From positions 87,968,001 to 88,032,000 of the forward strand of contig CM059582.1 in assembly GCA_030407085.1 (NCBI GenBank): DNA of 64,000 nucleotides. The letters run 5' to 3'. A program made the translations under genes and the position numbers. Numbering within the stretch: the first letter of the stretch is position 1; every line of letters starts with the position of its first letter. Positions 1 through 61,310 of this stretch are shown here, one piece after another. The notes under the pieces are model-generated. The model did no database searches, was not told the origin of the DNA, and saw only the letters and a list, made by a program, of their open reading frames with translations. Source of the stretch: Trichopria drosophilae (Eukaryota; Arthropoda; Insecta; Hymenoptera; Diapriidae).

Positions 1-1599
1 CCTGCCGGATTTTACAAGACCTTTTATAGTGACAACTGACGCATCAGGATATGGCCTAGGAGCGATTTTATCATAGGGAAAAATAGGAAAAGACACTCCA
101 GTGGCATACGCGGCCAGAAATTTGAAAGACGCCGAAACTCGATATCCCACGGGAGATAAGGAGATGCTAGGCGTAGTTTTCGCGGTCGAACAATTTCGCC
201 CTTACATATACGGCAGAAAAATTACAATAGTCACAGACCACGAACCATTGAAATACCTAAAAAATATGAAAGATTTAAAATTACGCATTCACAGATTTCG
301 AACAAAACTGGAAGACTACGAATACGACGTTGAATATAAACCGGGTAAATATAATGTAAATGCCGATGCATTATCACGAAACCCGCCCGACGGAATCGAA
401 CGTCCAGAAGATGGTAGTGACGAAAAAGAAAGCCCACCAGTAGCAGCAAACTTGTTACCACTGAGAAAACAAAAACCAATCGACCGAGGGTCAAAGCGAC
501 GGAAGGAAATCCACCAGTATAACACTCGCCGACGATCGGAGTCGAGTTCGGGAAACCCAGCTGACCGCAAGATGAGACGGCTGGACGATAATACCGATGC
601 CACAACAATACCAGATAATGGAAAAGAAACGTCGAAAGGAACTGTAAAATTTCCAAGGAAACCAAAGGGTTCCTCGGTAAGTAAATACTGGAGTTGGGAA
701 ATAATTGAAGCTGACGCGCAGAAAACCCCGATGAAACTTACAGATGCCGGGAAGACGCGATCAGCCAGGCGATTTACGCCACATAACCCGTCGAATTCGC
801 ACGAGAATCGACATGACGCGCAAAATGTCGCGGAGAATAATATACAAAATCCACCCACGCCAATACGGGCAGAGGAGCCGCACTTGGCCCCAACGTTAAT
901 AATGGATACCGATTCTCTAATGGAAGGTTCCGACGTTTCCCAAAATATCAGTTCAGACATTACAAATTTTGTGGCGAATCGGGATGAGGATTATAGGGTC
1001 AGATGGGTAGACCGAATGGGCCATTGGCCGACCGAATATATTGTCTCGGAAAAATACGAAAGTGTCAAAGAGGACGACCAGGGGATGACAGCGAGAGAAA
1101 AACATACAGTCTCCCCGCAACAATCGACAGCAGTGGAACCCTCCTCCGTGCGCAATGAAAGAGAAAAAGTAAATAGACCTTGGAAATATCGAATGGACAT
1201 TAAGGTACAACGATTAGATGATGCAAAGACACCGGCTCGTCGCCCGAGCCATATTAAAAGAGGTACGATCATCTCTCCGCGGCGCGGGGAGAGAGAGAGT
1301 GAATGCATAGGTGGAAAAGACAGCGCTACAGCAGCCACATACGGCACAAGCAGCGAGAGAGAATTGCCTTCAACGGATGCAAGTGCATCAAGAGGACGAC
1401 CGAGGGGCACTGAGGTCCGAGTTACCTCCTCTCCGGTTGTCGAGGAGAATGGGAATATTACAATGAATGAATCACATAACGATAGCTCTGAGAGTTCGGA
1501 ACGAACTGAGCACACTGCTTCCCCCTCCTCGCCAAATAAAAAGTGCAGAGATGCGCATGGTGACAATGAAATGTCACTCGGCACAAACAAACATAAAAA

Positions 1600-2000
1600 T
1601 TCTCCGCTGTATAATTACATAATAAACGAATATTGCGCTGAACCCTACGCGATACTAACACGAAATGAAGATGTCGCAATGGATGGAAATTGTCTATTCG
1701 ACTCACTCATCAAATTACATCACCTCAATATGACTCCGGTGGAATTGAGAAAAACTCTATTGGAATTCGGAAAATTGAACGATTGCGCAGAACCGAAAAA
1801 CACACAAAAGATACTTCTATCATTCAACGAATATGGTGATGACAACCACATTCGATTATTCGCCATGCACTTCGGCATAAATATCTGCGTACATTATAAT
1901 GATGATCCCATCAAAACGAGATACTTTCATTTTAAAGTATCCAACACAACGAATTGGCACCATCTACACTTTGAAAATGAACATTACACGCCATTTCTGA
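1600..2000 (+). other. OTU-type cysteine protease domain inside Gypsy-1 pol
   Basis: The segment contains AMDGNCLFDSL, which matches the OTU active-site block (Asp-Gly-Asn-Cys-Leu-Phe). The putative nucleophile Cys is codon 1691-1693. The paired His lies in FENEHYTPF, codon 1982-1984, 97 residues later, a normal distance for OTU domains. Between them EYGDDNHIRLFAMHFGINI fits the family pattern of a Gly-Asp turn, a helix and a hydrophobic Ile-X-Val strand. OTU enzymes usually remove ubiquitin or ubiquitin-like tags. The Asp/Asn third residue is not certain. The activity and any role in the element are inferred. The domain sits between RNase H and integrase, an unusual position. Confidence 0.8.
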
Positions 2001-2034
2001 AATTAGTGAGCGAAGAACCATCAGAAGAAAGGTT

Positions 2035-2190
2035 TTCACCCGATCCGGGAGGCGGACACTCCGATCCAGGAAACGGATCACCCGATCCGGGAGGCGGACC
2101 CTGCGATCCAGGAAACGGATCACCTGATCCGGGAGGGGGACCCTCCGATCCGGGAGACGATTCACCTGATCCGAGAAATGGATCACCCGA
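2035..2190 (+). repeat. In-frame tandem repeat coding for Asp-Pro-Gly-rich peptide
   Basis: Short direct repeats built on gatccgggaggcgga and gatccaggaaacggatca code for alternating DPGGG and DPGNGSP peptides, about six half-units. All units stay in frame, so this looks like a flexible spacer between the OTU and macro domains that can grow or shrink by slippage. Confidence 0.8.
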
Positions 2191-2385
2191 CAAAAAGAGA
2201 AAAGATAATAATAATGATACTAATATGTCAGAAAACGAATATGACACTGAAAATAGGCCAGAAAATCAGCCTCTGCCAAGCTCAACAACTGACACTGTCG
2301 AAGAAACAGACGAACACCAGCCCCAAACACAGACACCGGATTCCCTTGAATCTGGCGAACCCGCCATTACTATGTCAAATAAACA

Positions 2386-2800
2386 TCTGAAAAGTGAAAA
2401 GGGCCATGTTGCATTTTTCACAACCGCTGATTGTCTTCTTGACAGTGAGGTGGGAAGGCTCCTGCAAGAGAAATCACTCATGACATCACAAAAATTAAAG
2501 GATGGCACTCCTACAATTGGCGAAGTCGTAGTAACCAAGACCGGGAGGTATTTCATGTTCGCCCTGATAGTAAAACCGACTATCAGCGAGAGAGCATCGA
2601 AATGCGCCATAAATTCATGACTGAGGAAACTAAATAGAATAATTAATGAAACCGGTATAAAAATATTGCACATGGGATACGATCTCGACATAATGGCAAA
2701 ACAACAGTGGCTGAGTATTCCAGAGAACATTAGGACAAATATCAAGGTGAAATTATCCATTACCATATTCAAAGATTCACTAGCAGTACCTCGAGATATA
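2386..2800 (+). other. Macro-domain-like module (TARG1/OARD1-type pattern) in Gypsy-1 pol
   Basis: The pattern is that of small macro domains that bind or cleave ADP-ribose on proteins: a start KGHVAFFTTADC, a helix ending in EVGRLLQ, then GEVVVTKTGRYFMFALIVK, which parallels the GEV...RYI.YLI.K block of TARG1-type proteins. After a TGA at 2618-2620 the same frame continues with a helix, then GIKILHMGYDLD, matching the Ile-X-X-X-Gly-X-Gly-Leu-Asp region, and KVKLSITIF as the last strand. The Gly-rich ADP-ribose loop is degenerate here, so catalysis or binding may be lost. The call rests on pattern matching by eye and needs a profile search. Confidence 0.65.
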
Positions 2801-3895
2801 GAACGATATTTGTTAATAAGAGAACACCATTGTTCTGCAATAGGTGGCCACAAGGGTATAAAAAAAACATACCGCCGCCTATCTCGAAATTACTACTGGA
2901 AAAACATGCTTACCGACGTGACGGAAGTAATAAATCGGTGCTATGAGTGTCAGCACAAAAAGGTAAATAGAAACAAAACACGACTACCAATGATGATTAC
3001 CGACACACCAACGACAGCGTTCGATAAGGTAGCCATGGACCTATCGGGTACGACTACCATGTCCCGAGACGGAAATAAATTCGTGCTCACAATACAGGAC
3101 CTGCTAACAAAGTTCTCATTGGCAATACCTCTCCCCGATGGAACAGCGCTATCGGTAGCAAAAGCGTTTGCCACCGAATTCATTTGCAAATTCGGAGCAC
3201 CTCGAGGGATACTAACAGACCAAGGCCAAAACTTTATGTCAGACACTATAAAAGAATTGGCCAAGCTATTCAATATAACAAAATACAATACGTCCGCCTA
3301 TCATCCCCAATCAAACGGGAGCATAGAGAGGAGCCATGGTGTCCTAATAGAATATCTTCGATGTTTTGTTAAAAACCACAAAGACTGGGACAAGTGGATT
3401 CCGTACGCCATGCTGGCGTACAACGCTAGCACGCACGAGGGCACGAAATACTCTCCACACGAACTAGTATTCGGACAACCAGCCCGAGTACCCTCTAGCG
3501 TCGAACCGAGGGAAAAAATAATGACACATCCGGATTACGCAGAGGAACATCTTAAGAACATCCTCGAATTACAAACTTTAGCAGGACTAAACCTGAATCA
3601 GGCCAAACATCGGTCAAAAGCATACTATGACCGCAAACAGAACATCAAGTACTTCAGAGTGGGCGAATGTGTCATGTTGGAGAAAGAACCGCGACACGGG
3701 AAATTCGACGACACATTCGTCGGGCCATACGAAATAATTGAAATAGTTGGGCCCAGAAATGTCAAGATCCAACTGGATGAGACAAAAACAAAGGTTGTCC
3801 ACATTGACAAACTAAGAAAAAGTCATGACCCTCTCATTATCAATGAGGAGATCGGGTCACAACCAGAAAGCGGCGCGTCAGAAATAGAAGTATAG
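2621..3895 (+). pseudogene. Gypsy-1 pol, part 2: end of macro domain and full integrase
   Basis: The frame is the same as the upstream pol and follows the TGA at 2618-2620. The longest ATG-started ORF begins at 2666. Integrase features are complete: a His-His-Cys-Cys zinc domain (REHH, GGHKG, CYECQ), a catalytic core with the first Asp in AMDLSG, the second Asp in LTDQGQNF and Glu in NGSIERSHG, and a C-terminal GPY/F-type module with FVGPYEI near 3720. Integrase would join the cDNA copy to the host genome. The ORF stops at 3893-3895 and a small membrane ORF follows 108 bases later. The catalytic triad is intact, so only the upstream stops mark this copy as defective. Confidence 0.9.
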
Positions 3896-4003: not shown

Positions 4004-4363
4004 ATGTGTTTATTAGAACTTATAAACCGGGCACGCGAGCTAAGCCGAACAAGAGGTATAAACGAACGAGTTCGCCTGATGGAAAGCGCCACAATATACG
4101 GTGGCTCATCGCTGACATTCCTGATAATCATCGTGACACGAGTCCTCATCTATACGTGCAGTCGACGCAGATTCAACTTCGGAGTACGAAACAAACATGT
4201 CATTGCTACATCATCAAGACGCACCAGAGGGCGTAAAGTGAAATTCAACGTACAAGACACTGAAGTGAATATCGGAAACGTTAATGAGGCGGGAGACTTC
4301 CCGCCCGAACAGTGCGCGAGTGCGGAACAACAGAGAGTGGACCTGGATGTCATGCGTCCTTAG
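4004..4363 (+). CDS. Small ORF with one transmembrane segment; possible envelope remnant
   Basis: The 119-residue ORF has a hydrophobic stretch (SSLTFLIIIVTRVLIYTC, about residues 34-51) followed by an Arg-rich tail, as in a membrane anchor with a short basic cytoplasmic tail. It lies between integrase and the polypurine tract, where errantivirus-like elements keep env. No ectodomain, furin site or fusion peptide is visible upstream, so if it is env it is only the C-terminal end. I do not recognise the family, and it could be a chance ORF. It sits in the right place but has no supporting homology. Confidence 0.35.
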   Translation: MCLLELINRARELSRTRGINERVRLMESATIYGGSSLTFLIIIVTRVLIYTCSRRRFNFGVRNKHVIATSSRRTRGRKVKFNVQDTEVNIGNVNEAGDFPPEQCASAEQQRVDLDVMRP

Positions 4364-4629: not shown

Positions 4630-5288
4630 TGTTACGACCGGTTGGTCGTAGGCAGCCGTAGCCATATTAATTAGCATATATTATAAGTTATTACGAAATA
4701 TACTTTAGTATTTAATAATTATGTATGACAATAGTGTTATAAGATAGGTCCCGGTCAAACGATATATTCGTGGGACCGAGAAAAAAGTAAGGCGCGAACG
4801 CGACACTCTTACTTCAATGCGTAAGCATTTTTCGGCTGGGAACCTGCCGAGCTGAATTCGCGCAATATAAGCCTCGCCGTCGGTTACCTGCCGAGGCTAG
4901 CAGGTTCCCAGGGCGAAGGATTGCTAACCAGGCATGGGAAACGTCAGACGATCCGCGAACTCTTCGTCGACGGATCCAAAAAGACGTGGACACTCTAAAA
5001 TTCGGTGCTAGACTCCCGGAGAGATCACACCTCGCGCTCGTCCAGTTCCAATCTACGCGAGGTTCGAGAGTCGAGGTCCATCGAGGACTTAGGCGGTTTT
5101 CGCGATTACAAAATAGAGACTTAGCCGTAGCCGACCGAGGCTACTGAACGTCGGGAAACACAAGTGCGCGTCCCGTTCGTTCGACTTAGCGTGCCGATAC
5201 TTATGTACGGGTGCTGGACGTACATAAATAAATCCACCACTTAAATAAATATTCCCGTACATATTTCATGTTACCCCGAAACGTAACA
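4630..5288 (+). repeat. 3' LTR of Gypsy-1 (659 bp)
   Basis: The LTR starts TGTTACGACC and ends CGTAACA, giving a 7-base terminal inverted repeat (TGTTACG/CGTAACA). It contains an AT-rich first part, a TATA-like aatataag near 4863 and AATAAA-type signals near 5226-5245. The 5' LTR is outside the window, so identity between the two LTRs cannot be judged. Confidence 0.85.
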
Positions 5289-5290
5289 CT

Positions 5291-6373
5291 ATGAAAACTT
5301 CAAAAGATGAAAATGAAAGACAAAAAGATAGAATTAATCATTTAGAGAATATAGGTGCACAAAATTTTGTTTTAGTAAATAGTGGAAATAATGTGAATCA
5401 ATTAGCGAATATATTAAGAGAGGGGTTACAAAAATTCAGGGGGAGCATAAAACTCCTGAGTTTAAAGACCAATGGTCATGTAATCCCAAAGAATTTATTG
5501 ACCAACTGCAACGATATTTTGAAGTTAATATGATCCCTGAGAGAAGTTGGTTATTTTTGGCTGAAAGTGCGTTAAAGGGAAATGCAAGTAACTGGATTGA
5601 GGCTCGATCTGAACGGTTTCAGACTTTTGGGGAATTTAAAAATGCAATTTAAAGAGACATTTTTCTCGAATTCGTATCGAATGCAGATGAAAATGAGATG
5701 GAGCTGTCGAAAATACAATCCTCAATTAGGAGGTATGCGTGAATTCTTTCTGAGACAAGTAAGGGAAGGTCGTTATATTTTATCAAATAGCACGCAGGAA
5801 GAAATTAATTTCGAAGTGATATATCAATTTTCGGAACGAGTTCGAGATGCTCTAGCACATTCAGACTTTAATAATACTGAAAAAATAGCCAGTGTTTTAT
5901 CATATTTAGATATAGGGAGAACGGGAAGACAAGAAAAAGACAGATTTAATACGGAAAATAATTTTAATTATCGAAAACAGTCTGAAGGTGTTCGGAATGT
6001 GAGAGTCAATCGATTGCATAATCCTAATCAAAACTTTCCCTATCGGAAAAATGAATCATATTTTGACTCTTTTCGGCATAGAAATGAAAATCGCAGCGCA
6101 TATAATCAACATTATTTTGCTAATAATGAAAATAAAATTTTAGATGATAATAATGTAAATTTTCAATCCCAAAGCCGCGAAGATAATCCTCAATATTCTC
6201 GGGAATTGAATCCTCAACAAATGAAACGAAGAGCTGAAAATGTGCATCCAATGAGAAATTCGAAATTTGACGTAGTTTCCAATGCGGAAAATGAAATAAT
6301 TGTTGATAACTCTGGTGCACAAAGAGGTTCTTTAAACGAGAGAACAACTCAACGAGTAGGGTTCCGTGGTTGA
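5291..6373 (+). pseudogene. Gypsy-2 gag, frameshifted
   Basis: Gag homology is spread over two frames. The frame from 5291 opens the protein. Between about 5430 and 5640 the recognisable capsid motif continues in another frame (FIDQLQRYFEV, then ALKGNASNWIEARSE, which is the classic retrotransposon gag pattern). It then returns to the first frame at about 5645 (REFFLRQVREGRY). The C-terminal part is rich in Asn, Arg, Gln and Tyr and has no obvious zinc knuckle. Gag would form the virus-like particle. At least two frameshifts and a TGA at 5531-5533 inactivate it. Confidence 0.75.
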
Positions 6374-7306
6374 GTTGCAAAAATTTAAATGTCGAAAGGG
6401 ACCTTGCATGGGATGTTTTGGGCAACAAACGAGACGACGAACAATCGGACAAAACGCCAGCCGAATGTCCTAAACTAACATTAACGATAGGACAATGTAA
6501 CGTGGATGCATTAGTTGACTCCGGAAGCATAATTACATGCATTTCAGAGGAATTGTACAGTGAAATCAAACAAAAGGAAAAGATAGATGAATTGCCTGTG
6601 TCCAATGTACGTGTTATTACTGCAGTTGGTAAAATATCGACGAGTGTAAATAGACAGATATGTGGTATTTCGTGTTAAAAATTTGCTAATTCATACCATT
6701 TGTTTGGTTGTACCTAATTTGATCTGTGATTTGATATTGGGCAATGATTGGTTAAAAGCAAATAAGGCAATTATTGATTATGAAAAATTACTTGCTTTTA
6801 TTAAGGGAGTTCCTGTTGCTCAAATGATTGACCCAATATATGAATCCAATACGAAAGCTATTCGAACTTTTAAGAAGAATAAAATAATTTATGTGGATAT
6901 TCAAAATAAAATTCGAGATTCTACAAAGCAATTAAATAACAATAATGAAATATATATTGAAAACGATGAATGCCCCAAGGTATCTGATAAAGTAGATAAA
7001 AGTTGTAAATGATTCCTGCGTAATGAAGTAAATAAAGAAAAGAACGCAAGTGAAATAAATGAAAATGAAGCGCACAAGTATGAATTAAATGAAAACGATG
7101 TTCTAGTTCAAAGGGACAAAATTGTAGTTACGGTGGAGGTGCATAGACCTGATGAAGATGATACTGATCTGGACGAGGAAAGTAGAAATGAAGTAAATGA
7201 TGATGTAAATATAAATGGTTTGTATATAAGAAATATAAATCATATCAATGTGTGCAGGGATAGTTGGACAACTTCAGATCTTGGAGATTAATTTCTCGGT
7301 ACTGAG
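6370..7306 (+). pseudogene. Gypsy-2 aspartic protease and acidic linker, frameshifted
   Basis: The protease core is VDALVDSGSIITCIS with the catalytic Asp in the Asp-Ser-Gly triplet (about 6508-6530). A frameshift near 6670 moves the second half to another frame, where LILGNDWL (about 6735) matches the conserved flap-distal Leu-Leu-Gly-X-Asp-Trp block of Gypsy proteases. After about 7010 the sequence encodes a Glu/Asn/Asp-rich spacer with stops that leads into reverse transcriptase. The protease would cut Gag-Pol. It is nonfunctional here because of the frame break. Confidence 0.75.
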
Positions 7307-9406
7307 GTGAATTGTGACTCTGCGGTTGCTTGCCTAAATGTTGCCCCTCAGGACCACAATTTTTATCAAAAGTTTATTTCTACCCAACTGGGCCCGGAGG
7401 AATCTGAATGTTTTTTGGATTGCCTTCGGTCTAATGGAAATGATTTTAAGGATCTGGATAGTCATCAAATTAAACAAATTTTAGATCTTATTGTTGAATA
7501 TCAGGAGGTTTTTTCCGAAAAGGCCACGTGTACCACCATTTACGAACATCATATAAAATTAACTGATAATAAGGCGATCAGTAAGAAAACTTATCCCATA
7601 CCCTACGCATTACATGATGAAGTGCAGAAGGAGATAAATGACATGTTGAAAAATGGTATAATTGAAAGGTCAGAGAGTGACTATTGTAGTCCCCTGCGTG
7701 TTATTAAAAAGAAAGAGAGAGGGGTAAGGTTATGTTTGGACGCTCGTTTTATTAATCAGGTTATTCAATCTGATAACGAGAAACCTGTTTTAATAGACGA
7801 AATTTTGCATAAAACTGATGATATTAAATACATGTCCACCACTGATCTCACTCAAGGATATTGGCAAATACCTTTATCGAAGGAATCGAGGAAATATACA
7901 GTATTTTTACATCGTAACAATTTGTATCAATTTTGTCGAGTTCCATTCGGATTAAAAACGGCTGGAAGTGCGTTTATCAGAGCTTTAAGCTTAGCTCTAG
8001 GTAACGACTTCGAGGGGTTTTTGACATGTTACATCGAAGATTTGCTAATATACTCTAGTGATTTTGAATCCCATGTTCGTCATTTACGGTTATTATTTGA
8101 TAGGCTTAGAAAACATAATTTTGTTTTTAAACTTTCTAAGTCATTATTTTGTAGAAAGTCCGTTAATTTTCTTGGATTTAGTATATCGAGTTCCGGAATA
8201 ATCCCAGATCCCAAACGCATTAGTGTTATTCAAAGCCTTCAATCGCCGAAGAATACAAGGCAGTTACAGCAGGTTTTGGGAATTTGTAATTACTATCGGC
8301 AATTTGTTGCTAAATATTCTCATTTAATTAAACCTTTTAGATCGTTATTATCAAATAAAGCTAAGTGGATATGGGAGAATTGTCATGAAACAGCTTTCAA
8401 TGAGTTGAAACGTGCATTTTTACACTGTGTCACTATTAAACATGTTTTGAGAAATCAACCTTACTACGTTCAAACAGATGGAATCGACTTTGGCATTAGT
8501 GGAACATTATACCAAATTGACTCGGACTCGAACCAGAGAATTATTTCTTTAGTCAGTAGATGTTTAACTAAAGCTGAAAGAAATTATTGTACAACGGAAA
8601 AAGAGTTGTTGGGTATTATTTATTCAGTTACCAAATTCAGAGTGTTTTTGATAGGAGTTAAATTTGTTATCGTGACAGGTCATAAGGGATTGACTTTTCT
8701 AAATCAATCGTTGTATGATTATGCGAGACTTAGACGATGGAGCCTTGTAATGCAGCAATATTCATTTGAAATAAAATATTGTAAAGGAAGCGAGAACCTG
8801 GTTGCAGACTTTTTCAGTCGTAATTTCAATGATTATCCGGTAGGAAATGAGCGACATAACCTTCTTATTGCACGGTTGGCTGATATTGGAAAAGTAGGAA
8901 TTGGACGGTGTTATTTGCAATCTATCGATGAGGGTATGATAAAACGCTTTCGGGATATTGTTGCATTGCAGGAACAAGATCAGGAGTTACGCATTATTAA
9001 AGATCAATTAAAAAATTGTCCTAGTCTAGAGAATTTTAAGGTTTATAATTCTATTATATTTGCGCGATCAAAAAAATATGGTCGATGGAGAATATTTATT
9101 CCTGGGTGTTTATGTAAAGACCTCGTTATCCAAGTACACGAAAAGATGGGGCACCCTGGATCTTACAAAACTTTTGAGTATCTGAAACAGTATTATTACT
9201 GGCGAAAGATGAGAATGTTCGTAAAAAAGATTATTAAAGTTTGTGATAGTTGTCAACGTATGAAAGCAAACAATGTTAACATGGAAGGTGTTTACCAATT
9301 AATTCTTTGTTCTAAACCTAAAGAAATTCTCTCGATAGATTATTATGGCTTGCCGCATTATCCCTTGCCGCAATCCGTTGGAGGCGTCCATTATAAACTA
9401 TCATAA
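7307..9406 (+). pseudogene. Gypsy-2 reverse transcriptase, RNase H and truncated integrase
   Basis: This is a 699-codon open frame. Reverse transcriptase covers about residues 105-285, with LCLDARFIN, TDLTQGYWQIPL and FGLKTAGSAF as expected. The active-site box, normally Tyr-X-Asp-Asp, reads YIEDLL, so the first catalytic Asp is Glu. RNase H follows with TDGID and EKELLG, but the usual Thr-Asp-His is TGHKG, losing a metal-binding Asp. The integrase zinc domain (HEKMGHPG, CDSCQ) is intact, and the core breaks off right after ILSIDYYG. The spacer between RNase H and integrase is short and ordinary and lacks the macro/OTU module of Gypsy-1. The long open frame with dead active sites is odd: stops are few but key residues have changed. 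Confidence 0.85.
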
Positions 9407-11311: not shown

Positions 11312-14300
11312 TTATTCAACCGGAAGTTTACAGAGTTTATGCACTGGACGCATCAATTCGGTTTCAGCGGTTTTTACTATGCATACGCGCACCAATCCAT
11401 CACTACCGGTTATACATCGTATTACCCGACCCAATGGCCATTTCGTCGGCGGATAATTTTCCTTAAGAATTACAACAAAATCGCCGATTTGCAGATTGGC
11501 TCGCACCGCACGCCATTTCACGCGCTTTTGTAATGAGGCAAGATAATCGAGCTTCCACGCCTTCCAAAAATGATCGCGCATACGCTGAACAATCTGCCAA
11601 CGAGAAAGAAGCGATACTTTTATATCAGAGAGGTCAGGTTCAGGTATTGCGCACATGGGTCGCCCAATGAGAAAATGTCCTGGCGTCAGGGCGATTAAAT
11701 CGTCGGGGTTGGCAGACAAGGGGGTGAGAGGGCGAGAATTCAGGCAAGCCTCTATTTGACACAGGAGGGTCTGAAATTCCTCAATAGTCAGCGTGTGATC
11801 GGAAATGACGCGCCGTAAATGGTGCTTCACGGAACGTACACCTGATTCCCAAACACCGCCAAAATGAGGTGTGGCCGGAGGTATAAACTGCCAGTCAATC
11901 CCTTCTGTAGCTAAGGAGGCTCGCATGTTGGGGTCCTTATGCACTTCTCGAAGTGCACCTCGAAGAGCCCGATCACCACCCTGAAAATTAGTACCTCGAT
12001 CACTCATCATAATGGAGGGGGTACCACGACGAGAAGAGAAGCGCCGCAATGCCGTCAAAAACGATGGAGTGCTTAGTTGCATAACTAATTCTAAGTGGAC
12101 GGCCTTAACACGCATGCATACGAAAATCGCTAAATAGCTCTTATGAGCCTGACGACCCCGACCGCCTACAGACCGAACGTAAAATGGTCCTGCAAAATCC
12201 ACGCCCACTGTATGAAACGGGGGAGCCGGATTCACTCGAACCGATGGTAGTGGAGCCATTTGTTGAGTCGATAACGACGCTCTCTGACGGACGCAAGCTA
12301 CACAATGCGCAATTAGCGTTCTGACAAGCGTACGAGCATTGATCACCCAATACTGTTCACGTAAAATTCTTAGTGTGAGTTGCGGACCGCCGTGTAACGT
12401 ACGTAAGTGAGCGTGACGCATTATCAACTGAGTTACGGGATGATCCGCCAAAATAATGGAATGCACTCGATCCCTATTGAGGCATGATTTTTGGAGTCTT
12501 CCTCCAACACGAAGCATACCGAATTTATCTAAATCTGGGCAGAGTGGAAGCAAAGCGTTACCACGCGGCAATATTTTACCCACTTGAACAAAGGAGAGCT
12601 CATTAGGAAAGCACCGTTGCTGAACATACTTCAGCCAAAAAACTCGCGCCCTTTCGATGCAACTGATGTCGGATATGCTTTCGGAATCTCTAAAACGAGG
12701 CAATGAACGCAAATAGAATTTAATCAACAGGGAAGTTACGCGCAGAAGTTTGCCCCAATCTGAAAAACGATTCACGAGTTCCCATTCTACAGTGTGAGCG
12801 ACATGCACTCTTGTTGGTCGCTCTTCCAAATCCGTGTCTACCGGTACCATAAAATTATTGCATGGCCAATGCGACTCACTCAAGGCCAACCAGGGCGGCC
12901 CATTCCACCACAACGAATCATTCAGCAAGTTTGCCGCAGAAACACCCCGAGAAGCAAGATCGGCCGGATTAGAGTCCGTGGGTACGTGTCTCCACTTTAC
13001 CGATAGCTCCTTGGACAATTTCTGAATGCGCGAGACACGATTGGCAACGAAGACGTTCCACTTCGATGGACAACCTGCTACCCAGTAAAGAGCCACGGAA
13101 GAGTCGGACCAAGCATATACGGAATTTGAATCTACATCTAAATTTAGGGAAGCAATCGTCCATTGCAATAGCTGAGCTAATAGATCAGCAGCACAGAGCT
13201 CTAACCTGGGAATCGTGACGTAAATTTTTCTAGGCGCAACACGCGTCTTTGCAGTCATTATATTTACATAATCAGCTGATTTACTAGCAACACGCAAATA
13301 GACCACTGCACTGTAAGCTACTGATGAAGCGTCACAAAACCCGTGGACTTGAACTGAGCGTCTGGGTTCAGAATTTACCCATCGGGGAATTTTTAGAATC
13401 GATAAAAGCTTTAAATCCTGAAAGAAGTTACGCCATTCTTCAAGGTGGTCACTTGGGAGGGGAGCATCCCAATCATAACCTAGAAACCATAATTTTTGCA
13501 ACTGAACTTTCGCTAATATCACTACTGGCGCTACAAGCCCTAATGGATCAAACAACTTGGACACGTAAGAAAGGAGGCTACGTTTCGTCCACGTAGTAGG
13601 GAGCTCTGATGTGACGGAAAAACGAAAGCAATCCTGAGCAGGAGTCCAAGTTAAACTTAACACCTTGAGTTGGTCATCTTCTTGTAAAGATTTTTGGTCT
13701 TGTAATTCGCGATCCTCGAGAGGAATACCTTCTAATAGAGAGGGCGCATTAGCACTCAACTTTTTTAATGGAAGACAACCTGCATTAGTCATCGCAATAA
13801 GTTCGTCACGAAGTTTGATGCAATCGGAAGGTGTGGATGATCCAAACAAAATGTCATCCACATACACATTCTGAGGTATTTCTTTAGCAGCTAATGGAAA
13901 TTTGGACGCCTCGTCAAGAGCTAGTTGCTGTAACACTCGAAGTGACAAATACGGTGCTGCAGCAGTTCCGTACGTTACGGTTCGCAAACGAAAAACTTGG
14001 ATGTCGTCCTTTTCCGTAGGCCGCCATAGAATCAGTTGATACCTGGTATGAGAAGGTTCCACCATAATTTGGCGAAACATTTTTGTGATGTCAGCAGTAC
14101 AGACGTACCGGTGGAGGCGCCAACGTGTAAGAATAGCTGGCAGCTCCTGATGAAGCCTGGGGCCGACTAATAAAAGGTCGTTCAAGGACACTCCGTTCGA
14201 CGTTGGGCACGACGCATTAAACACGACCCGTAATTTGGTCGACGTGCTCGAATCCTTGAGTACGGCATGATGGGGTATGAAACATACCTGTTCATCATCT

Positions 14301-14686
14301 ACGCGTTCATATGGAACCATGTGACCTAATGCTAAATAATTACGTAAAAATTCATGATAATCGCGAGCCAAATCGGGGGTACGAGCCAACCTGCGTTCCA
14401 TGCGTTTGTACGCTTTTAAGGCAATGTCGTATGATTCGCCTAAGTTCAAGGGAGGATTTCCATTGAACGGCAGGGCAACCGTATATCGACCTGACTCATC
14501 TCGCCTAGTGGTTTCTTGAAATAAGTTTTCGCAAGTCAACTCATCCGCATTTAAAAAACGCTGTTTCGGCAATTCCTCGATATTCCAAAATTTTTCGAGC
14601 GCAACATGTAATTCGTTATTAGAAGTGACGTGTAAGGAGATGCCTCGTGAAGTAAAATGTGATGCTTCTTTCGACATGACAAGCAC
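11312..14686 (-). CDS. BEL/Pao pol: reverse transcriptase, RNase H, integrase
   Basis: This 1124-codon ORF has no internal stop. True pol similarity starts near 14610 with LEKFWNIEELP and GRYTVALPF, the hallmark entry to Pao RT; the ATG at 14686 lies within gag zinc-finger sequence read in another frame. RT has the YVDDILFGSS box (about 13855). RNase H shows FCDASS (about 13335). The integrase zinc domain (HAHLRTLHGG, CVACVRQRA) precedes DFAGPF, SDRGTNF and GGVWESGVRSVK, so all three acidic catalytic residues are present. The C-terminal RDHFWKAWKLDYL and PLGRVI blocks are typical Pao integrase tails. Pol copies RNA to DNA and integrates it. This is the best-preserved coding region in the window. 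Confidence 0.93.
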   Translation of the reverse strand: MLVMSKEASHFTSRGISLHVTSNNELHVALEKFWNIEELPKQRFLNADELTCENLFQETTRRDESGRYTVALPFNGNPPLNLGESYDIALKAYKRMERRLARTPDLARDYHEFLRNYLALGHMVPYERVDDEQVCFIPHHAVLKDSSTSTKLRVVFNASCPTSNGVSLNDLLLVGPRLHQELPAILTRWRLHRYVCTADITKMFRQIMVEPSHTRYQLILWRPTEKDDIQVFRLRTVTYGTAAAPYLSLRVLQQLALDEASKFPLAAKEIPQNVYVDDILFGSSTPSDCIKLRDELIAMTNAGCLPLKKLSANAPSLLEGIPLEDRELQDQKSLQEDDQLKVLSLTWTPAQDCFRFSVTSELPTTWTKRSLLSYVSKLFDPLGLVAPVVILAKVQLQKLWFLGYDWDAPLPSDHLEEWRNFFQDLKLLSILKIPRWVNSEPRRSVQVHGFCDASSVAYSAVVYLRVASKSADYVNIMTAKTRVAPRKIYVTIPRLELCAADLLAQLLQWTIASLNLDVDSNSVYAWSDSSVALYWVAGCPSKWNVFVANRVSRIQKLSKELSVKWRHVPTDSNPADLASRGVSAANLLNDSLWWNGPPWLALSESHWPCNNFMVPVDTDLEERPTRVHVAHTVEWELVNRFSDWGKLLRVTSLLIKFYLRSLPRFRDSESISDISCIERARVFWLKYVQQRCFPNELSFVQVGKILPRGNALLPLCPDLDKFGMLRVGGRLQKSCLNRDRVHSIILADHPVTQLIMRHAHLRTLHGGPQLTLRILREQYWVINARTLVRTLIAHCVACVRQRASLSTQQMAPLPSVRVNPAPPFHTVGVDFAGPFYVRSVGGRGRQAHKSYLAIFVCMRVKAVHLELVMQLSTPSFLTALRRFSSRRGTPSIMMSDRGTNFQGGDRALRGALREVHKDPNMRASLATEGIDWQFIPPATPHFGGVWESGVRSVKHHLRRVISDHTLTIEEFQTLLCQIEACLNSRPLTPLSANPDDLIALTPGHFLIGRPMCAIPEPDLSDIKVSLLSRWQIVQRMRDHFWKAWKLDYLASLQKRVKWRAVRANLQIGDFVVILKENYPPTKWPLGRVIRCITGSDGLVRVCIVKTAETELMRPVHKLCKLPVE

Positions 14687-15888
14687 GCAGTTTTCATTTT
14701 ACAACGATTAGGATAATGTCCAGCCTTCAAGCAGTTGAAACAACAGCGATGATCTTCAATTAATTTCAAACGTTCATTCGGTGACATCTGCTTAAAAGCT
14801 GTACAATCGCGTATTTCGTGCGTTGAATTACAAACGAAACATAGCACATTCGGCGCCGTGCTTACATGCGCCGTGTATCGCGTAGAATTGGACGCATTTG
14901 ATTTCAAAGGAGCTTTAGAATTGGTATTAAAGACAGGAGGTTTAAAATCAGTTAGAGTCAACGCTTGAATACGTTGCAAAATAAAAGACTCTAAATCATC
15001 AAATTTAGGCACATCTTGTTCAACCGAATGATTTTCCCAAGCGCTGCGAGTAGCGCTGTCCAACTTTAATACTGTCATCACAACTACAAGCGTACTCCAA
15101 TTATCTACTGGTTCGTTAAGTGCTTTTAAAGAAGCTAAAAGTGCTCTGGTTTTATCCAAGAGAGCCCGGAGTAAATGCGGCTTAGAATTAGTAACCGGAG
15201 GTAGGCTTAGAAGTTGTGATGTCAAAGAAAATATTAATAGTCGTCTATTCGAATAAGTCTTTTTCACCAAGTTCCAGGCTGCCTCGAAATTGCGCCCTGT
15301 TACCGAAAATTCTTGAATGACATTGAGCGCTTCACCGGTCAAACACGTCTTCAAATAATGTAATTTTTGAATATTACTTAAATGAACGTCGTCCACGATG
15401 AGTGACTGGAACAAATCTTGGAAGGTCTCCCAGCACGTGATATCTCCAGAAAATTTCGGGAGTGTAATCCTCGGAAGTTGAACTGATGGCGTCAATTGAG
15501 GCGCTGTCACGGGCGCATCCACACTGGCAGAACTGGCAGCACTCGAAGGCAGTCCATTTACCAGATTAGCCAACAGGTCCATCAAATCCATATAAATGTC
15601 GTGATATTGCCCAAATTCGTCACCGACAAAATAATGTTCAGTTTTGCGTTCACTAGCATCAAAAAGCAAACTAACATCACAATGTGCCTGTTCTATATTT
15701 TCCCACAAGGTCACAGCACGTTGACGACGGCACTTTAGGAGCTCGGAATTTACATTTGCAGCGTTGATTTTACGTGCGTTAGTTAACATACGTGACAATG
15801 TTTCAAAATGCATGCGCTCTTTTACTAATGCTTCTAGAACGGGCCCTTGAGACCTCGTCTGTCTAGACGATCCCGTATCGTCTGACAT
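14551..15888 (-). CDS. BEL/Pao gag with zinc knuckles
   Basis: This 445-codon ORF starts with MSDDTGSSRQTRSQ, a typical beginning. The middle has LPRITLPKFSGDITCWETF and the LHYLKTCLTGEAL block of the Pao gag/DUF1759 family. The C-terminal part has Cys/His motifs (CFVCNSTHEIRDC, then CFNCLKAGHYPNRC and CLSCRKKHH) that bind nucleic acid. Real gag homology ends with HHILLH near 14640; the last roughly 29 residues are pol-region DNA read in the wrong frame. The gag and pol frames overlap by 136 bases at this point. The natural arrangement is a single gag-pol frame with protease in between, so the overlap marks a deletion. Confidence 0.9.
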   Translation of the reverse strand: MSDDTGSSRQTRSQGPVLEALVKERMHFETLSRMLTNARKINAANVNSELLKCRRQRAVTLWENIEQAHCDVSLLFDASERKTEHYFVGDEFGQYHDIYMDLMDLLANLVNGLPSSAASSASVDAPVTAPQLTPSVQLPRITLPKFSGDITCWETFQDLFQSLIVDDVHLSNIQKLHYLKTCLTGEALNVIQEFSVTGRNFEAAWNLVKKTYSNRRLLIFSLTSQLLSLPPVTNSKPHLLRALLDKTRALLASLKALNEPVDNWSTLVVVMTVLKLDSATRSAWENHSVEQDVPKFDDLESFILQRIQALTLTDFKPPVFNTNSKAPLKSNASNSTRYTAHVSTAPNVLCFVCNSTHEIRDCTAFKQMSPNERLKLIEDHRCCFNCLKAGHYPNRCKMKTACLSCRKKHHILLHEASPYTSLLITNYMLRSKNFGISRNCRNSVF

Positions 15889-21558: not shown

Positions 21559-22138
21559 AATATTCCGAGACTTCCGGTTGGCTAGGTGAGTGCGATTGCA
21601 TGGTATTTTGTTAGAGGATCTGCAAAAGATTTTACCAAGGTGCTGAAAAGACTTGCCCCTCAGGGAGTTTTGTTGCAGGCGACGAGAGTCGTTAAACCGT
21701 GAGCTAGGCGAAAAAGTAGCTCGTTTTTCCGATCGGAAGGTGAGCTAGAGAGAAAATTTTCCGAGGCTTCCACTCCTAACCTTAAAACGTCAAACCGGAA
21801 ACCGAAAACATAAAGAAAAAAATCGTAGGTTGGAAGGTGAGAAGGAGAGTGAGCTGGAAGAAGAGGTTGGGTTGAAAAATCGGCCAATTTTTGCGACGGA
21901 CTGTAAGTCATCTAGAACTCTTTGTTATAATTGTGAAATTCATTTTCGGCGACAACTTGCTTGTTTAGTTAGTACGCAAAGCGCGGGAAATTCGGGGGAA
22001 GTGACGTGAAGTCACTGGGAGTGAAAAAGAGTGGGAGAGAGAGAAAGCGAGGGAAGAGAGAAGACACCGAGCAACCGGACTCGCATTCAAGCTGTTGCGA
22101 GCACGCATGCGCACAGGAAGGAGTAGTGGCGGGAATGA

Positions 22139-22995
22139 GTGAGAAGTTGGGGCGAGAGAGTAAGAAAGGTTAAGAACGAGTTGAGTAGGGAGTCGAGTGA
22201 AAAGGGGTATCGACGGGAAAGCGCGGAAAATAAAGTAAAACGAGGGAGACCGAGCAAGGCCGAAGCCTTGAAGGCAGAGCGAGACAGCAGCACGAGCTCG
22301 AGAGCGAATGTGCAGTCGTGCCTGAAGAGAAGTAGGAAGGAAAGAGAGGATGCGAGCGAGAGTGAAAAAGAGGACAAGAGAATAGCGAAGAAAACAAAAA
22401 ATAAAAGAGCATCGCAAGAAAGCGTACAAAATATAGAGATGGAAGAGACGAAAAAAAATAATGAAGGAATTGCTGGACAAGCAGAAGGAAGAAATAATAG
22501 CAAAAATGGAAAAGGATAAAGAGGAGCTGAAACAAGAATGGAAAAATTTTAAGAAGGATTTTGAAAAACGAGAGAATGAAAGGGATGAAGAAATAAGAAA
22601 ATTAAAGGAAGAATTACAGGAGATGAAGAAGAAGAAGAAATTAGGGAGAGAAGAGAGAAAAGAAAAAATATTATAATAAAAGGAGCCGAATGTAGAGAGC
22701 AGGAAGAGAAAGCAGTGGTGAATGAAATACTAGGAGCTTTAATGTGAAAAAAGAGCGTGTGAAAGATGGGAAGGAATGTGGGAAAGGAACGAATGTGTAT
22801 ATAGATGACGATATGACAGTAAATGAGAAGAAAATGCAGAAGCAGATTAGAGAATGGGCCAAAAGTGAACGAAGCAAAGGAAAAAATGTAATTGTAAAAT
22901 ATAGCAGAGGCATATTAAACGGAAAAGAATATGTATGGAGTGAAAGAACTGAAAAGATGATGGAGAAGAAATTTCGTGAAGAAATGGATGTATGA
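22139..22995 (+). pseudogene. LINE-A ORF1-like region, frameshifted
   Basis: Three partly overlapping frames (22139-22519, 22461-22676, 22744-22995) together describe a highly charged protein. First comes a Lys/Arg/Glu/Ser-rich segment, then a long heptad-like coiled coil (MKELLDKQKEEIIAKMEKDK and onward). Last is a segment with MQKQIREWAKSERSKGKNVI that resembles the RNA-binding part of LINE ORF1 proteins. ORF1 proteins coat LINE RNA. At least two frameshifts separate the parts. No zinc knuckle is visible. Confidence 0.6.
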
Positions 22996-24230
22996 GAGTG
23001 CCTATGATAGTGCGAAGAGCAATTGTGAAATAGCTGAATGTTCTACGAGTGAAGATGTGAATAATGATGTGAATGAGAGTGAGAATGAAAATGAGAAGCA
23101 CAGCCATAAAGAATATTGCACAACAGTAGAGGGAAGAAATGAATCGAGTATGAGAGAAAATGAGAGAATTCAATATGTAGAAAGAGAATGTAAGAGTATG
23201 AATGGGGGTGAGAAGATAGGCGAGAAGGAAGGTGAGAGGGGGGAGGATGAAGGAGAGAAGTATGAATGGGACAAAAAGGGGAAGGGGGCGGGGGAAAGTG
23301 GGAGAAATAGGAAGGGGGAAAAGGATAAAAAGAGAGAAATATATAGAGGGGGGATAGAAGATAGGAGACAAGGAACAACAGTTATATTTTGGAATGTAGC
23401 CGGGGTTAAAAATCAAGACGAGGAATTTTGGGAGTTTATAAAACAATACGATATTATAGGTTTGACGGAAACTTGGATCGAAAAGAAGGGATGGGACTTG
23501 CTGAAGAATAGGCTGCCGGATGGGTGGATATGGAGATATCAAGCAGCAAGGCGTGAAAATAAAAAAGGAAGAGCAAGCTGGGGAATTATAACAGGATAAG
23601 AAAAGAATTAAAGGAATACGAAGTAGAAAATAATCAGATTGAAGGGTTACAAGAAAGAAATATAGATAGGGGAAGTATGTAGAATCTTTACAGTGTATAA
23701 CAAAAATGGGGAAGAAAGTATGCTAAGAGAAATTGACGAAAGAATAAAACCGGAAGAGGAGCAAACGCTAATATTGGGGGGAGATTTCAATGCGAGAATA
23801 GGGAAGAAGGGGGGATGGAATAGCGAAAGCGCGAAAGGGGAAGTAGAGGATAGAAAGTCGAAAGATAGGACAAAAGCATAAGCAAGGAAAGCAATTGATA
23901 CAATTGATAGAAGATAGGGGGTGGATAGTATTAAATGGAAATAAGGAAGGGGACGAAGAGGGGGAATGGACTTTTGAGAAAAAGGGGAAGAGATCAGTGA
24001 TAGACATAGGGATAGTAAATTGGGAGGCTTGGGAAAAGGTCAAATGCTTGAAAGTGGCAACTAGGCTAGATTCAGATCACCAGTCAATAATATTAAAGAT
24101 AGAGGAGGATATAGAGGGAAAGGAAGAAGAACAGGGCGTCGCCGGGAAAAGACAGGACTGGTCTGAAGAAGGGATAGGGCTTTATAGAACTCGACTAGAA
24201 GGGATAAAATGGAATAACAAGGGAGCAGTA
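22976..24230 (+). pseudogene. LINE-A ORF2, APE-type endonuclease part
   Basis: Endonuclease motifs are spread over three frames: FWNVAG (Asn, about 23390), LTETWIE (Glu, about 23465), LGGDFNARIG (Asp and Asn, about 23778) and LDSDHQSI (Asp-His, about 24073). These are the metal-binding and catalytic residues of APE-like nucleases that nick target DNA. Stops and shifts occur near 23600 and 23880. The reading frame is cut by LINE-B at 24231 and resumes at 32846, where the 7-base agcagta is duplicated. The first 380 bases are an unusually Glu- and Gly-rich linker. Confidence 0.8.
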
Positions 24231-24420: not shown

Positions 24421-25884
24421 TTAGTTTTTGTTTAAAAAGTCTTTTAGTTTTAATCTGCCGTCAAGGTTCGCGAAAAATGAAAAAGATTTCTTTTTGAAGA
24501 TGGTGAATGATGATGATGTACGAAGTGAGGATGGCATGAAATCCCAAATGTAAGATGCAACGATATGAAATGAAAATCTTAAAGATTCCGTGTTGAATTT
24601 GGAAATGGCCAGAGGTTTTACATCGCCTCTTACTGGTCTATTTGAGATATAAGCAGTAAAGAATCTAGCTAGGTGATTAGGCGTCATTGTACCCAATATT
24701 TTGTGGGTAAGGCAGGCTGCAAAATGACATCTGCGCATTCCCATAGTCAACCACCCTAGTTTCTTCCTGTAGGATGTTACGTGTTCAAATTTGTTTAAAC
24801 CATATACGTATCTAATTCCATCATTAACCTTAAGTTCAAGTTTTAACTCCTGCTCCCCAGACATGTTCGTAAATAACACAGAACAGTAGTCAACAAGGGG
24901 AAACCGCAGCATTTCAACAAGATGCTTACGGAGGGGGAAATTTGTACTTCGTCTGAAAAAACGTAGACGGTACATTAAAAAATTTATCTTTTTGCATGTC
25001 ATCTTGACATGTTCCTTCCACGTGAGTTCAGAGTCTAGTATAACTCCCAGACTGCGCACAGAGGACCTAAAAAATACCTTGGTGTTATTAATTTCGATGA
25101 AACTATTTGTCCCGCGAGATAGTTCACGAACATAAGCGTTTGACCCGAAAAATATAGCTTTTGTTTTAGAGATATTTTGAGATAGATTGTTGCGTGTGGC
25201 CGAACTTATAATATCAGCAGAAGCGAGGCTTAATTTGGTTTTTGTCTCATTTATATCATTAATATGACAATATTTCCGCACGTATATTCGTAGATCGCCA
25301 GCAATTATAACGTGTTTAATTTCATTATCTAGACCTAAAGCTATGTCATTTATATAGACAGCAAATAGTAATGGGCCAAGTATCGAGCCTTGTGGAACAC
25401 CTGTATTTACTTCTCTGAAGTTGGATTTGGTTCCATCCTTTCCTATCACTGCCTGGGTTCTACCCGCGAGATACGAACCAAACCAGTGCAAAGCATTGTT
25501 TGATAGTCCCAGTGTTGCAAGTTTTCGAAGAAGAGTGACATGACAAATCTTGTCAAAGGCTTTACTAAAATCAAACAACAGGAGAAATGTCACTCTACTT
25601 CGATCAATGCCTTTTCTGATGTCATCGGTTAGCTTAATAAGGGCAGTTTGAGTGCTACAACCAGAACGAAAACCAGACTGATATTCGTCCATAAGTCCAT
25701 TTGATTCAATAAAATCTGAGAACTGATGACAGACTAGTTTCTCTAGTACTTTAGAGAGAAAGCATAGGAGAGAGATCGGTCTGTAGTCGCCAAGACATGT
25801 AGGGACTGTAACCTTATTTAGGGACTTGACGAGCGATTTTTTCCATATTGTAAGTAAGACTGGTTTATAGAAGAGTTGAAGATG
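24421..25884 (-). pseudogene. LINE-B ORF2, reverse transcriptase part
   Basis: From 25692 down, the frame has QSGFRSGCSTQTALIKL, FLLLFDFSKAFDKI, GVPQGSILGPLLFAVYINDI and the thumb/C-terminal blocks typical of CR1/Jockey-group LINEs. The catalytic box, normally [FY]ADD, reads IIAGDLRIY, so the first Asp is Gly. This alone should kill polymerase activity. Between 25692 and 25884 the frame shifts relative to the endonuclease; the intervening DNA encodes the first RT blocks in other frames. No CCHC motif follows the thumb, unlike LINE-A. The ORF ends at 24421, about 190 bases before the simple-repeat tail. Confidence 0.85.
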
Positions 25885-27470
25885 TTACACAAATATTTTC
25901 CGATTTCTGGCAGAGCAGCCTGAACGACTGACAATACCTCTAGCCTGAGATCCAAGACTCTTTATTGTGAGTGAAATATCTAGAATTGAAATATTTTTCA
26001 ACTCGAATTTCTGATTTGGTCTATTATGTAAGAGTGACGAAAGGTAGTCGGAGACAGAAGGGGTATATGGGTCGAAAGATACCTTTGTGAAATATTCATT
26101 TAGTTGTTCCACCGTAAACTGATCAGGCATATCATTCGCACTGGAACAAATACCTAGATGTTTGAGTTCTTTCCATAGCTGCGACGGATCAGTCAAGTCA
26201 GACAGTCTATCATAATAGTAATCAAGGCGAGCAAACTCAATGGCTGAATGAGCAGTATCTCTAGCATGTCTGTAGTTGTGCAAGTCAAAGGGGTGTCTTG
26301 TGCGTCGAAATCGCCTGTACAGTCTGTCTCTATCAGTGATTAAATTTCGATGGAAAGAAGTGAACCAGGGATGCTTATTTTTTGATGCATTTATAGTTTT
26401 AAGTGGAATAAAAAGTTCAATAGCTTTATGTAAATTTGAATATAGCAAGTCTATGGAAGCATCTAAAGAGTTTATGTCATCAAGTAGAGTCCAGTCACAA
26501 ACATTTAAATAGCTAAGAAAACCTGTTAAATTTAAGTTCTTATAGTCGCGAAAGGAAAAAGATTTCTGATCGACTATCGGTACCGGTATAGAAAGAGTAG
26601 CAGCTATAAGGTCATGTCCGTCAGAAAAGGGCACTTCAGTTTTAGAGAATCTCGTAACGTATTTGTTGATAGTATCTGTCTTAGAATGTCCAGTCACCGT
26701 ATCTTGAGAGTCCACTATACATAAATCGAGCCAGGAATGTGATGACTTGGTATGAAATGTTGCTCCATGTGGAATGAGTTGCAAGGAATTTTCGTCAATA
26801 AATTTTCTAATAAACCGAGCATCTTCAGAGTTTGATAGCTGATTTGCATTGAAATCACCAAGTATAACTTTGGAAGAGTAACAGTGCATACAGCTCAATA
26901 GCTTGTCAATGAAGTCATTATCTTTGGTAAAAGGAGCATGCGAGGGTCTATAGACTACAGCTACAAAGATAGGATTTCCGCCTGCAAAAGACACTTCACA
27001 AAAAATGTACTCTGGAAAACCAGGCTGTCCCCGCCATACTGTGTTTGATAAACACAGGACTTTACAAAAGAGAGAATTGTGAATAAAGAGTGCAACCCCG
27101 CCGCCATGAATATTACGATCATGTCTAAGGAGAGTATAATTTGAAAGACTTACCAGAGATGTGTCGATATGTTTATCCAATTTAGTTTCAGTCACAGCTA
27201 TTATGTGAAAGTGCGGTTTGTCGGCTAAGTAAAATTTAATCATCTCAATTCGGGCTCTAAGGGAATTCACGTTATTATGACAAACTCTAAGGTTATCTTC
27301 TGTTCTTTTCTTTTTATACGCAGAATGTAGATCTTGAGATAGGTTAGAATGAGATACAGTGGAAGAAGAGGGCTGAAGATGAGATAGAGCAGGTGATAGT
27401 GAAATGGAATGATGTGATGTAGATGAGATATGGGAATGATGTGATTTATGATTAATGAGAACTCGCGAGG
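25885..27470 (-). pseudogene. LINE-B ORF2, APE-type endonuclease part
   Basis: The frame is open upstream of the GTG at 27270 up to the TIR insertion near 27472. Motifs include VCHNNVNSLRARIEMIKF, AVTETKLD (Glu), HGGGVALFIH, VVYRPSHAPF, ILGDFNANQL (Asp-Asn) and FSDGHDLIAA (Asp-His, where Ser-Asp-His is usual). The chain then continues into the linker with WFTSFHRNLITDRDRLYRRF, which precedes RT in Jockey/CR1 elements. It nicks the target to prime reverse transcription. The ORF ends at 25885 by a frameshift into RT. The Asp-Gly-His form of the last motif is an extra residue difference worth noting. Confidence 0.85.
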
Positions 27471-38589: not shown

Positions 38590-38668
38590 TTGCCCGACGG
38601 AGATTCGAACTTCAAAATTTTGATTTACAAGTCCAGCGCTGTAACCACTCAACCACCGTACAATTGTG
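38590..38668 (-). other. Best-preserved tRNA-like module of the T element (left arm, copy 2)
   Basis: On the minus strand: acggtggttgagtggttaca (D arm, A box), gctggacttgtaaatc (anticodon arm; loop cttgtaa as in tRNA-Thr with anticodon UGU), gttcgaatctccgtcggg (T arm, B box), then a T run. The length is about 70 bases, as for a tRNA. The stems are imperfect and the acceptor stem is not closed, so it is tRNA-derived rather than a tRNA gene. Confidence 0.65.
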
Positions 38669-45905: not shown

Positions 45906-45941
45906 CTCTTCTTCTAACTTCTTAGATACTGGGTAGTACCG

Positions 45942-46642
45942 CTACTTTATAGGTCGGGCGTCACCTACATCAATTATATGCTCGACCAAATGGGCACATC
46001 CAATATGAGGCATATGGTTAGGCTGGATTGACTGGACTACGGCTTGTATGCGCCTTTGTTGACCGTCCGTCAATTTCCTAAGACCTGATGTCGTTTGACT
46101 CTCTTCAAGAGGAAAAGAAACCAAAGCAACTTGTACGGGAATCCCCTGGACACTTCCATTTATGGTTAAATCATTTTCGCGAGGATGGTGTATTGCGTTG
46201 AAGTCGCGAATAAAGTCTGCGCCTAACAGACATTCTGGTTCTAAATCGGGCATTATTAGAGCCGTCAAATATTTTTCCTCGGTTCCAACTCTAAATGGCA
46301 GTCGTATTTGGCCGGTTATCGACACAGTTCTTCCGTCGGCGACTCTGGCGCCGTCTCCTCCGTATGGTTCAATAAAAATTCCATAAACATCGGCGAGTCG
46401 ATAAGCAATTCGACCGATGACTGTACGGTTTCTCCAGGGTCAAAAAGTGCTTTAAGGTGGTGACGATTAACTACAACTGTCACCCACCAGCGAGTGTGAC
46501 CCTCTTTCGTCGCCATATGAACATCCGACGGGATAGGTTTGGCGGCTCGTATTCGGTTTTGTGAGGTCTGTGTCTGATACTCAGGGATAGGTGAGACCTC
46601 ATTTACGCATCCCTGATCTCGTTTCCCCGGCATCGAGGGCAA
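45942..46642 (-). pseudogene. Gypsy-3 aspartic protease, frameshifted
   Basis: The first half (46642-46316) has the active-site strand HLKALFDPGETVQ, in which the usual Asp-Thr/Ser-Gly is Asp-Pro-Gly. The second half lies in another frame (46325-45942) and contains ECLLGADFIRDF, the conserved second block. The frame with RT is shared with 45905-45660. The Pro substitution and the frameshift both argue against activity. Confidence 0.75.
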
Positions 46643-59471: not shown

Positions 59472-59567
59472 CAAGTTGTGCACTTTTCAGCTGTTTTTAG
59501 CATACTTTTACAATTTGCCATTCCTATATCTCTTGAAATTTTTTATAAAACTGGTCTACTATTTGTT
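59472..59567 (-). repeat. Inverted-repeat arm, right
   Basis: This is the inverse partner of 54933-55029. Its outer end cuts the integrase core of Gypsy-4 directly after the codons for PTGNK. Confidence 0.7.
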
Positions 59568-60010
59568 CCCGGTAGGTGTTATAGGCAAGGGACCGACAGC
59601 ATCTAATGAAATTTTTTCAAACGCATTTATCGGAGTGTCTGTAATAATCATGGGCTCTCTTACTTTCGATCTAACTAATTTTATATTTTGACAACTTTTA
59701 CATGTTCTAATATAATTTTGGACATCATCTCATAATCAGGGCCAATAAATGTTTCTCTAATTCTCCGGTATGTTTTAGTGACTCCTTTATGTCCTCCAAT
59801 TAAACTGTCATGATTTTCTAAAATTATTTCCATTCGCATATTTTCAGGAGGAATTTGTATCCTACCTCTACATATTATGATTTTAATTTTTATCGAATAA
59901 AAATATTCATATAATAATTTAAATAGACTTTCATTTGAATTTACTTCTAAAAAGTCTCCAATTTCCGATATTCTAAACGAATGTATGTTTAATCTACAGA
60001 ATACTTCTTT
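59567..60010 (-). pseudogene. Gypsy-4 end of macro domain and truncated integrase
   Basis: This continues in frame after the TGA at 60011-60013. First come a helix and FRISEIGDF, which fits the macro-domain Ile-Gly-X-Gly region in altered form. The integrase zinc domain follows with ENHDSLIGGHKGVTKTYRRI and, after a one-base frameshift near 59705, TCKSCQNIK. The core starts with ISLDAVGPLP, supplying the first catalytic Asp, and is then cut off at 59567 by the inverted-repeat arm. The similarity to Gypsy-1 in this zone (IGGHKG, KTYRR, MIITDTP) is strong. Confidence 0.78.
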
Positions 60011-60513: not shown

Positions 60514-60531
60514 CGGCGTCATTATGGACGT

Positions 60532-61302: not shown

Positions 61303-61310
61303 TACCCCAA

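Follow-up and report, generated by a model that had tools for sequence, protein, structure and literature searches.

A decayed Gypsy-type retroelement with OTU-like and macro-like stretches between RNase H and integrase in Trichopria drosophilae

OTU domains occur in the proteins of two groups of mobile elements, Ginger1 and Helitrons (PMC2836005). Ginger1 DNA transposons, like the first of the two elements analyzed here, combine a Gypsy-type integrase with an OTU-like protease in one protein; however, Ginger1 is a DNA transposon in which, as described, the OTU domain follows the integrase, whereas the first element is an LTR element in which the OTU-like block precedes the integrase and is accompanied by a macro-like stretch (PMC2836005). 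The animal Helitrons and Helentrons with OTU are likewise mobile elements that bear an OTU-like protease but, as they are described, are rolling-circle elements without a Gypsy integrase (PMC2836005, PMC6431247). The Burro giant Gypsy elements of planarians share with the first element a Gypsy-like LTR organization and the possession of extra domains linked to ubiquitination; in contrast, the Burro domains named in that source are MATH, BIR and others, with neither OTU nor macro among them (PMC6431247). With regard to the macro-like stretch, TARG1 (OARD1) and DarG, macrodomains of the ALC1 class, resemble both elements described here in the pattern of the N-terminal half and in the position of the catalytic lysine, but in the accounts cited TARG1 and DarG have a glycine loop and no fusion to an integrase, whereas our elements have lost the loop and carry the stretch ahead of an integrase (PMC9411070, PMC7050489). 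TARG1 is described as acting via Lys84 and Asp125 (PMC9411070), the second residue being printed as Glu125 in PMC7050489; according to the same two sources, DarG retains the lysine alone, and readers also belong to the ALC1 class.

Anatomy of the first element and its surroundings

The window, that is, the whole stretch of 64,000 nt that was analyzed, is rich in repeats and contains several retroelements (Table 1). The first element is the 3' fragment of a decayed Ty3/Gypsy LTR retroelement, the 5' part of which lies beyond the window. The order of domains is that of Ty3/Gypsy, with RNase H followed by an integrase that has both H2C2 and core domains, and one putative 3' LTR with TG...CA ends is present in the window, directly preceded by a purine-rich tract. 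From 5' to 3', the element consists of RNase H, a long linker, an OTU-like block, a Gly/Pro array that is likely to be a flexible spacer, a macro-like stretch, the integrase, a short ORF that, judged by eye, is possibly an Env remnant, and the putative 3' LTR. A Gypsy-like ORF starts right after this LTR, which may mean that the first element is inserted within another.

The initial annotation had placed an OTU-like and a macro-like domain, in this order, between the RNase H and the integrase of a Gypsy-type pol, all in one frame. The anatomy is largely borne out, including a DGNCLF motif with a His 97 residues downstream, the Gly/Pro repeat, and an integrase with zinc-binding and core domains, but the open frame is not, and the support from family profiles is weak. 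The two main ORFs do share a common phase, yet they are split by an in-frame TGA within the macro-like stretch, and an in-frame TAG lies inside RNase H. Because of these two stop codons, the first copy is a dead relic that makes no intact protein of the OTU/macro/integrase kind.

Family, PDB and contig searches as well as structure predictions were run on the pieces of the element separately. No relatives were confirmed among the pattern matches in viral contigs (2, 25, 1, 72 and 5 matches) or in prokaryote genome contigs (16 and 196 matches); three further viral-contig loci from the pattern scan served only as a background set.

Elsewhere, the window holds two other Gypsy elements with linkers that lack a macro-like stretch, a BEL/Pao element, LINE-like ORFs, a segment of extreme purine bias and a match to tRNA (Table 1). 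The latter adjoins repeats in common with the region at 20.6-21.4 kb and is possibly a tRNA-derived repeat.

Table 1. Coordinates of the two elements with a macro-like stretch and of other features in the window
Feature	Positions	Strand	Evidence or remark
First element: RNase H end of Pol	2-481	+	Pfam RT_RNaseH 3.4e-24 on 77-481; in-frame TAG at 74-76
First element: linker, RNase H to OTU-like block	482-1603	+	482-1519: 0 Pfam families
First element: OTU-like block	1604-2047	+	presumed catalytic residues: Cys (codon 1691-1693), His (codon 1982-1984); Pfam OTU, below cut-off
First element: Gly/Pro array	2036-2190	+	tandem 21/42-nt units encoding Gly/Pro/Asp-rich heptapeptides
First element: macro-like stretch, N-terminal half	2354-2617	+	conserved in second element; two-sequence profile, TARG1 top of PDB, E 0.33
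First element: in-frame TGA	2618-2620	+	cuts macro-like stretch
First element: macro-like stretch, presumed C-terminal half	2621-2791	+	in-register alignment with end of macro profile, not significant; overlaps start of integrase piece
First element: integrase, zinc-binding and core domains	2771-3892	+	Pfam Integrase_H2C2 2.8e-18 and rve 3.6e-09 on 2621-3892
First element: 119-aa ORF	4004-4363	+	one hydrophobic segment; no Pfam match above cut-off
First element: putative 3' LTR	4630-5288	+	659 bp; 7-nt inverted ends TGTTACG / CGTAACA
Second element, readable part	59562-61320	-	Gypsy, diverged and broken
Second element: acidic linker	60535-61320	-	no OTU seen
Second element: macro-like stretch, N half	60014-60274	-	tblastn 1.7e-9; stop follows
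Second element: macro-like stretch, presumed C half	59840-60010	-	
Second element: broken integrase start, two frames	59562-59893	-	tblastn 1.3e-19; Pfam Integrase_H2C2 1.6e-09 on 59684-60010
Other Gypsy-type element	5291-9406	+	single ORF (7307-9406) encoding RT, RNase H and integrase zinc domain
Other Gypsy element	43501-47964	-	RNase H and integrase at 43504-45108
BEL/Pao element	11312-15888	-	Peptidase_A17, DUF5641, DUF1759
LINE-like ORFs	24421-27270	-	reverse transcriptase and endonuclease
Extreme plus-strand purine bias	22001-24000		GC skew 0.60, AT skew 0.47
tRNA match	38590-38662	-	Rfam, 32.4 bits; no ARAGORN call

The OTU-like block

Judging from the order of its motifs, with scores that lie below the curated cut-off, the OTU-like block is probably an OTU domain. 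The Cys of DGNCLF is residue 30 and the His of ENEHY is residue 127 of the OTU-like piece, so that 97 residues separate the DGNC Cys from a His that precedes an aromatic residue, where about 100 are expected. When 24,736 models were scanned, OTU (PF02338) was the sole Pfam family reported for this piece, with E 0.13, 0.068, 0.043 and 0.2 for different choices of boundaries, at scores of 12.6-14.8 bits that missed the family cut-off of 23.3 bits in every scan; either half of the piece scanned alone gave no Pfam OTU match. The initial reading of this block as OTU thus stands with respect to the motif order and fails with respect to the curated cut-off. No match to the piece was found in PDB, in NCBIfam or among phages. 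A single weak match among plasmids (E 1), annotated as a sulfotransferase, was rejected. The AlphaFold model of the piece (pLDDT 36.1) is too poor to interpret, and matches of the two AlphaFold models to the folds of gyrase and HIV RT were disregarded given that models derived from one or two sequences are too poor.

The DGNCLF motif alone is poor evidence of an OTU domain. It occurs at least 120 times in viral contigs, and for 2 of the 120 occurrences listed the same ORF contains an H[YWFC] over 60 residues farther downstream; by eye, these two cases are un-OTU-like, as is the entire set of 120. These observations, along with the weak scores obtained with Pfam and with an OTUD profile, are what would be expected if DGNCLF had arisen by chance within a fast-changing linker and the block were no OTU, an explanation that we nevertheless consider improbable because no family other than OTU was reported for the piece and because the pattern of the downstream half (YGDDNHIRLFAMHFGINICVHY...LHFENEHY) is rare. 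This pattern, which was designed with the window sequence in view, has 2 matches, one of them the block itself, in 945,007 residues (10,787 open six-frame segments). A profile of three cellular OTUD sequences yielded E 3.7e-5 on the OTU-like piece alone, but with the same profile, the long segment that holds the piece came only 8th when ranked among 4917 background segments (E 5.8), in a background of which 120 of the 123 loci had themselves been chosen for DGNCLF. In a profile-profile comparison with these three OTUD domains, P was 0.00036, over 14 columns around DGNCLF only.

A macro-like stretch in two diverged Gypsy elements

The second element is a diverged, broken Gypsy element on the minus strand which also has a macro-like stretch directly before the integrase, both being detected by tblastn (Table 1). 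The N halves of the macro-like stretches of the two elements align with a score of 101 (z 17.1) that was reached in 0 of 2000 shuffles; for the RNase H-integrase linkers of the two other Gypsy elements in the window, there was no match, with 429 and 397 of 500 shuffles, respectively, scoring at least as high as observed. Both the position and the sequence of the macro-like stretch are conserved in these two diverged elements of the window. The C halves are weakly alike, 105 of 2000 shuffles scoring as high. A match to DUF6452 (0.0019) on the linker and macro-like piece of the second element fell below the cut-off for that family and was dropped.

When a profile built from the two N halves was compared with 177,635 PDB sequences, six rows were obtained at an E limit of 10: TARG1/C6orf130 occupied ranks one to five (E 0.33 to 0.41) and RACK1 rank six (1.1), none of them being significant by itself. 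Compared with TARG1 individually, the two elements gave scores that were reached in 1 and 36 of 5000 shuffles, respectively, versus 1410 of 5000 for a control linker, and both aligned in one register. A 16-sequence TARG1/DarG-type profile, which comprised TARG1 and 15 hand-picked sequences (from the 30 of 58 plasmid and 30 of 471 phage records listed, with one from elsewhere), aligned to each of the four macro halves at its matching end, with E 0.0093, 0.10, 0.16 and 0.66; the control linkers had E 0.39 and 1.2, such that one macro half scored worse than one control. The set of eight targets used with this profile included one dummy with out-of-frame coordinates. In a profile-profile comparison with macro sequences, the N halves reached P 0.0011 and the C halves P 0.098. 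The C half had no macro match in PDB, and for the macro-like pieces there was no macro family match in Pfam, PHROGs, NCBIfam or PADLOC. From these comparisons, a TARG1-like N half appears plausible, as the initial annotation had proposed for the stretch as a whole, whereas for the C half the likeness is unproven.

The MGAGIA glycine loop of TARG1 is replaced by LDSEVG and LVTTIS in the two elements. The lysine at the place of the TARG1 catalytic lysine, which, on the basis of chain numbering and the presumed length of the protein, we take to be Lys84, is kept in both. Near the place of TARG1 Asp125, the elements have D and E, within C halves that show no significant macro match. Altogether, the missing glycine loop, the C half without macro signal and the best PDB E-value of 0.33 could also be accommodated by a conserved Gypsy integrase domain that is unrelated to macrodomains and resembles TARG1 by chance. 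We regard such a domain as rather unlikely given that TARG1 takes the first five of the six PDB rows, that the register of the alignment to TARG1 is the same in both elements, and that each of the four halves falls on the corresponding end of the 16-sequence profile.

No OTU was seen in the linker pieces that precede the macro-like stretch of the second element. Upstream of this linker, the Gypsy element is no longer readable (the segment at 61548-62168 is LINE-fragment-like by eye, with 0 Pfam matches), and therefore an OTU farther upstream there is possible. A macro-like stretch with no OTU seen beside it implies that the two need not be paired. The presence of the macro-like stretch in both elements and of the OTU-like block in one suggests that the former is older and that the OTU was a later gain; loss of the OTU in the second element would look identical.

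These observations bear on the function suggested in the initial annotation, a module that counters host ubiquitin and ADP-ribose signaling. Joint erasure, by a deubiquitinating OTU and a catalytically active macro hydrolase, of the host ubiquitin and ADP-ribose marks restraining the element would fit two domain-like stretches located side by side in one Pol and the lysine kept in both elements, and some ALC1-class hydrolases are reported to act without the Lys/Asp pair (PMC9411070). However, the glycine loop is gone from both elements, which leaves the countering of ADP-ribose signaling unsupported, there is no visible OTU in the second element, and no macrodomain family match is significant, so that joint erasure of this kind seems quite improbable to us. 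The profile searches that had been proposed as a check detected neither OTU nor macro families at curated cut-offs, with OTU appearing only below its own, an outcome that, taken formally, goes against both assignments.

Proposed role of the two domains and implications

Weighing the sequence evidence as a whole, we lean, by a little more than an even judgment, toward a dead Gypsy element of a lineage with an integrase-adjacent macro-derived domain that is probably not an ADP-ribose hydrolase, complemented in the first element by an OTU-like deubiquitinase. In the Pol of this lineage, the macro-derived domain would be located directly before the integrase and probably be joined to it. Since neither element retains the ligand-binding glycine loop, the domain in a living element would have served the integrase structurally or as a binding module and would not have hydrolyzed ADP-ribose. 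The first element would have borne, in addition, an OTU-like cysteine protease, with the Gly/Pro repeat as a putative spacer. Considering what OTUs generally do, this protease would most likely have shielded the element's own proteins: it would have deubiquitinated Gag-Pol or integrase, slowing the proteasomal turnover of these proteins.

A more elaborate scheme, which we consider very improbable, involves MARUbylation, a hybrid ADP-ribose-ubiquitin ester mark (PMC12000418). Under this scheme, an integrase-tethered eraser pair of OTU and TARG1-like domains in the living element would strip the mark from the incoming integration complex, and the worn glycine loop would represent a changed binding site, not a lost one.

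Among the literature matches listed, from a search with most subscription papers and Repbase outside its scope, no macro domain in a Gypsy Pol was found, and no paper there joined Gypsy, macro domain, integrase and RNase H; the domain may be described outside that scope. If confirmed, the macro-derived domain before the integrase would be a Gypsy domain undescribed in the literature searched. With a confirmed OTU, an LTR element would join the mobile elements that have a possible role in ubiquitin editing, and ubiquitin turnover as a limit on retrotransposition would become testable.
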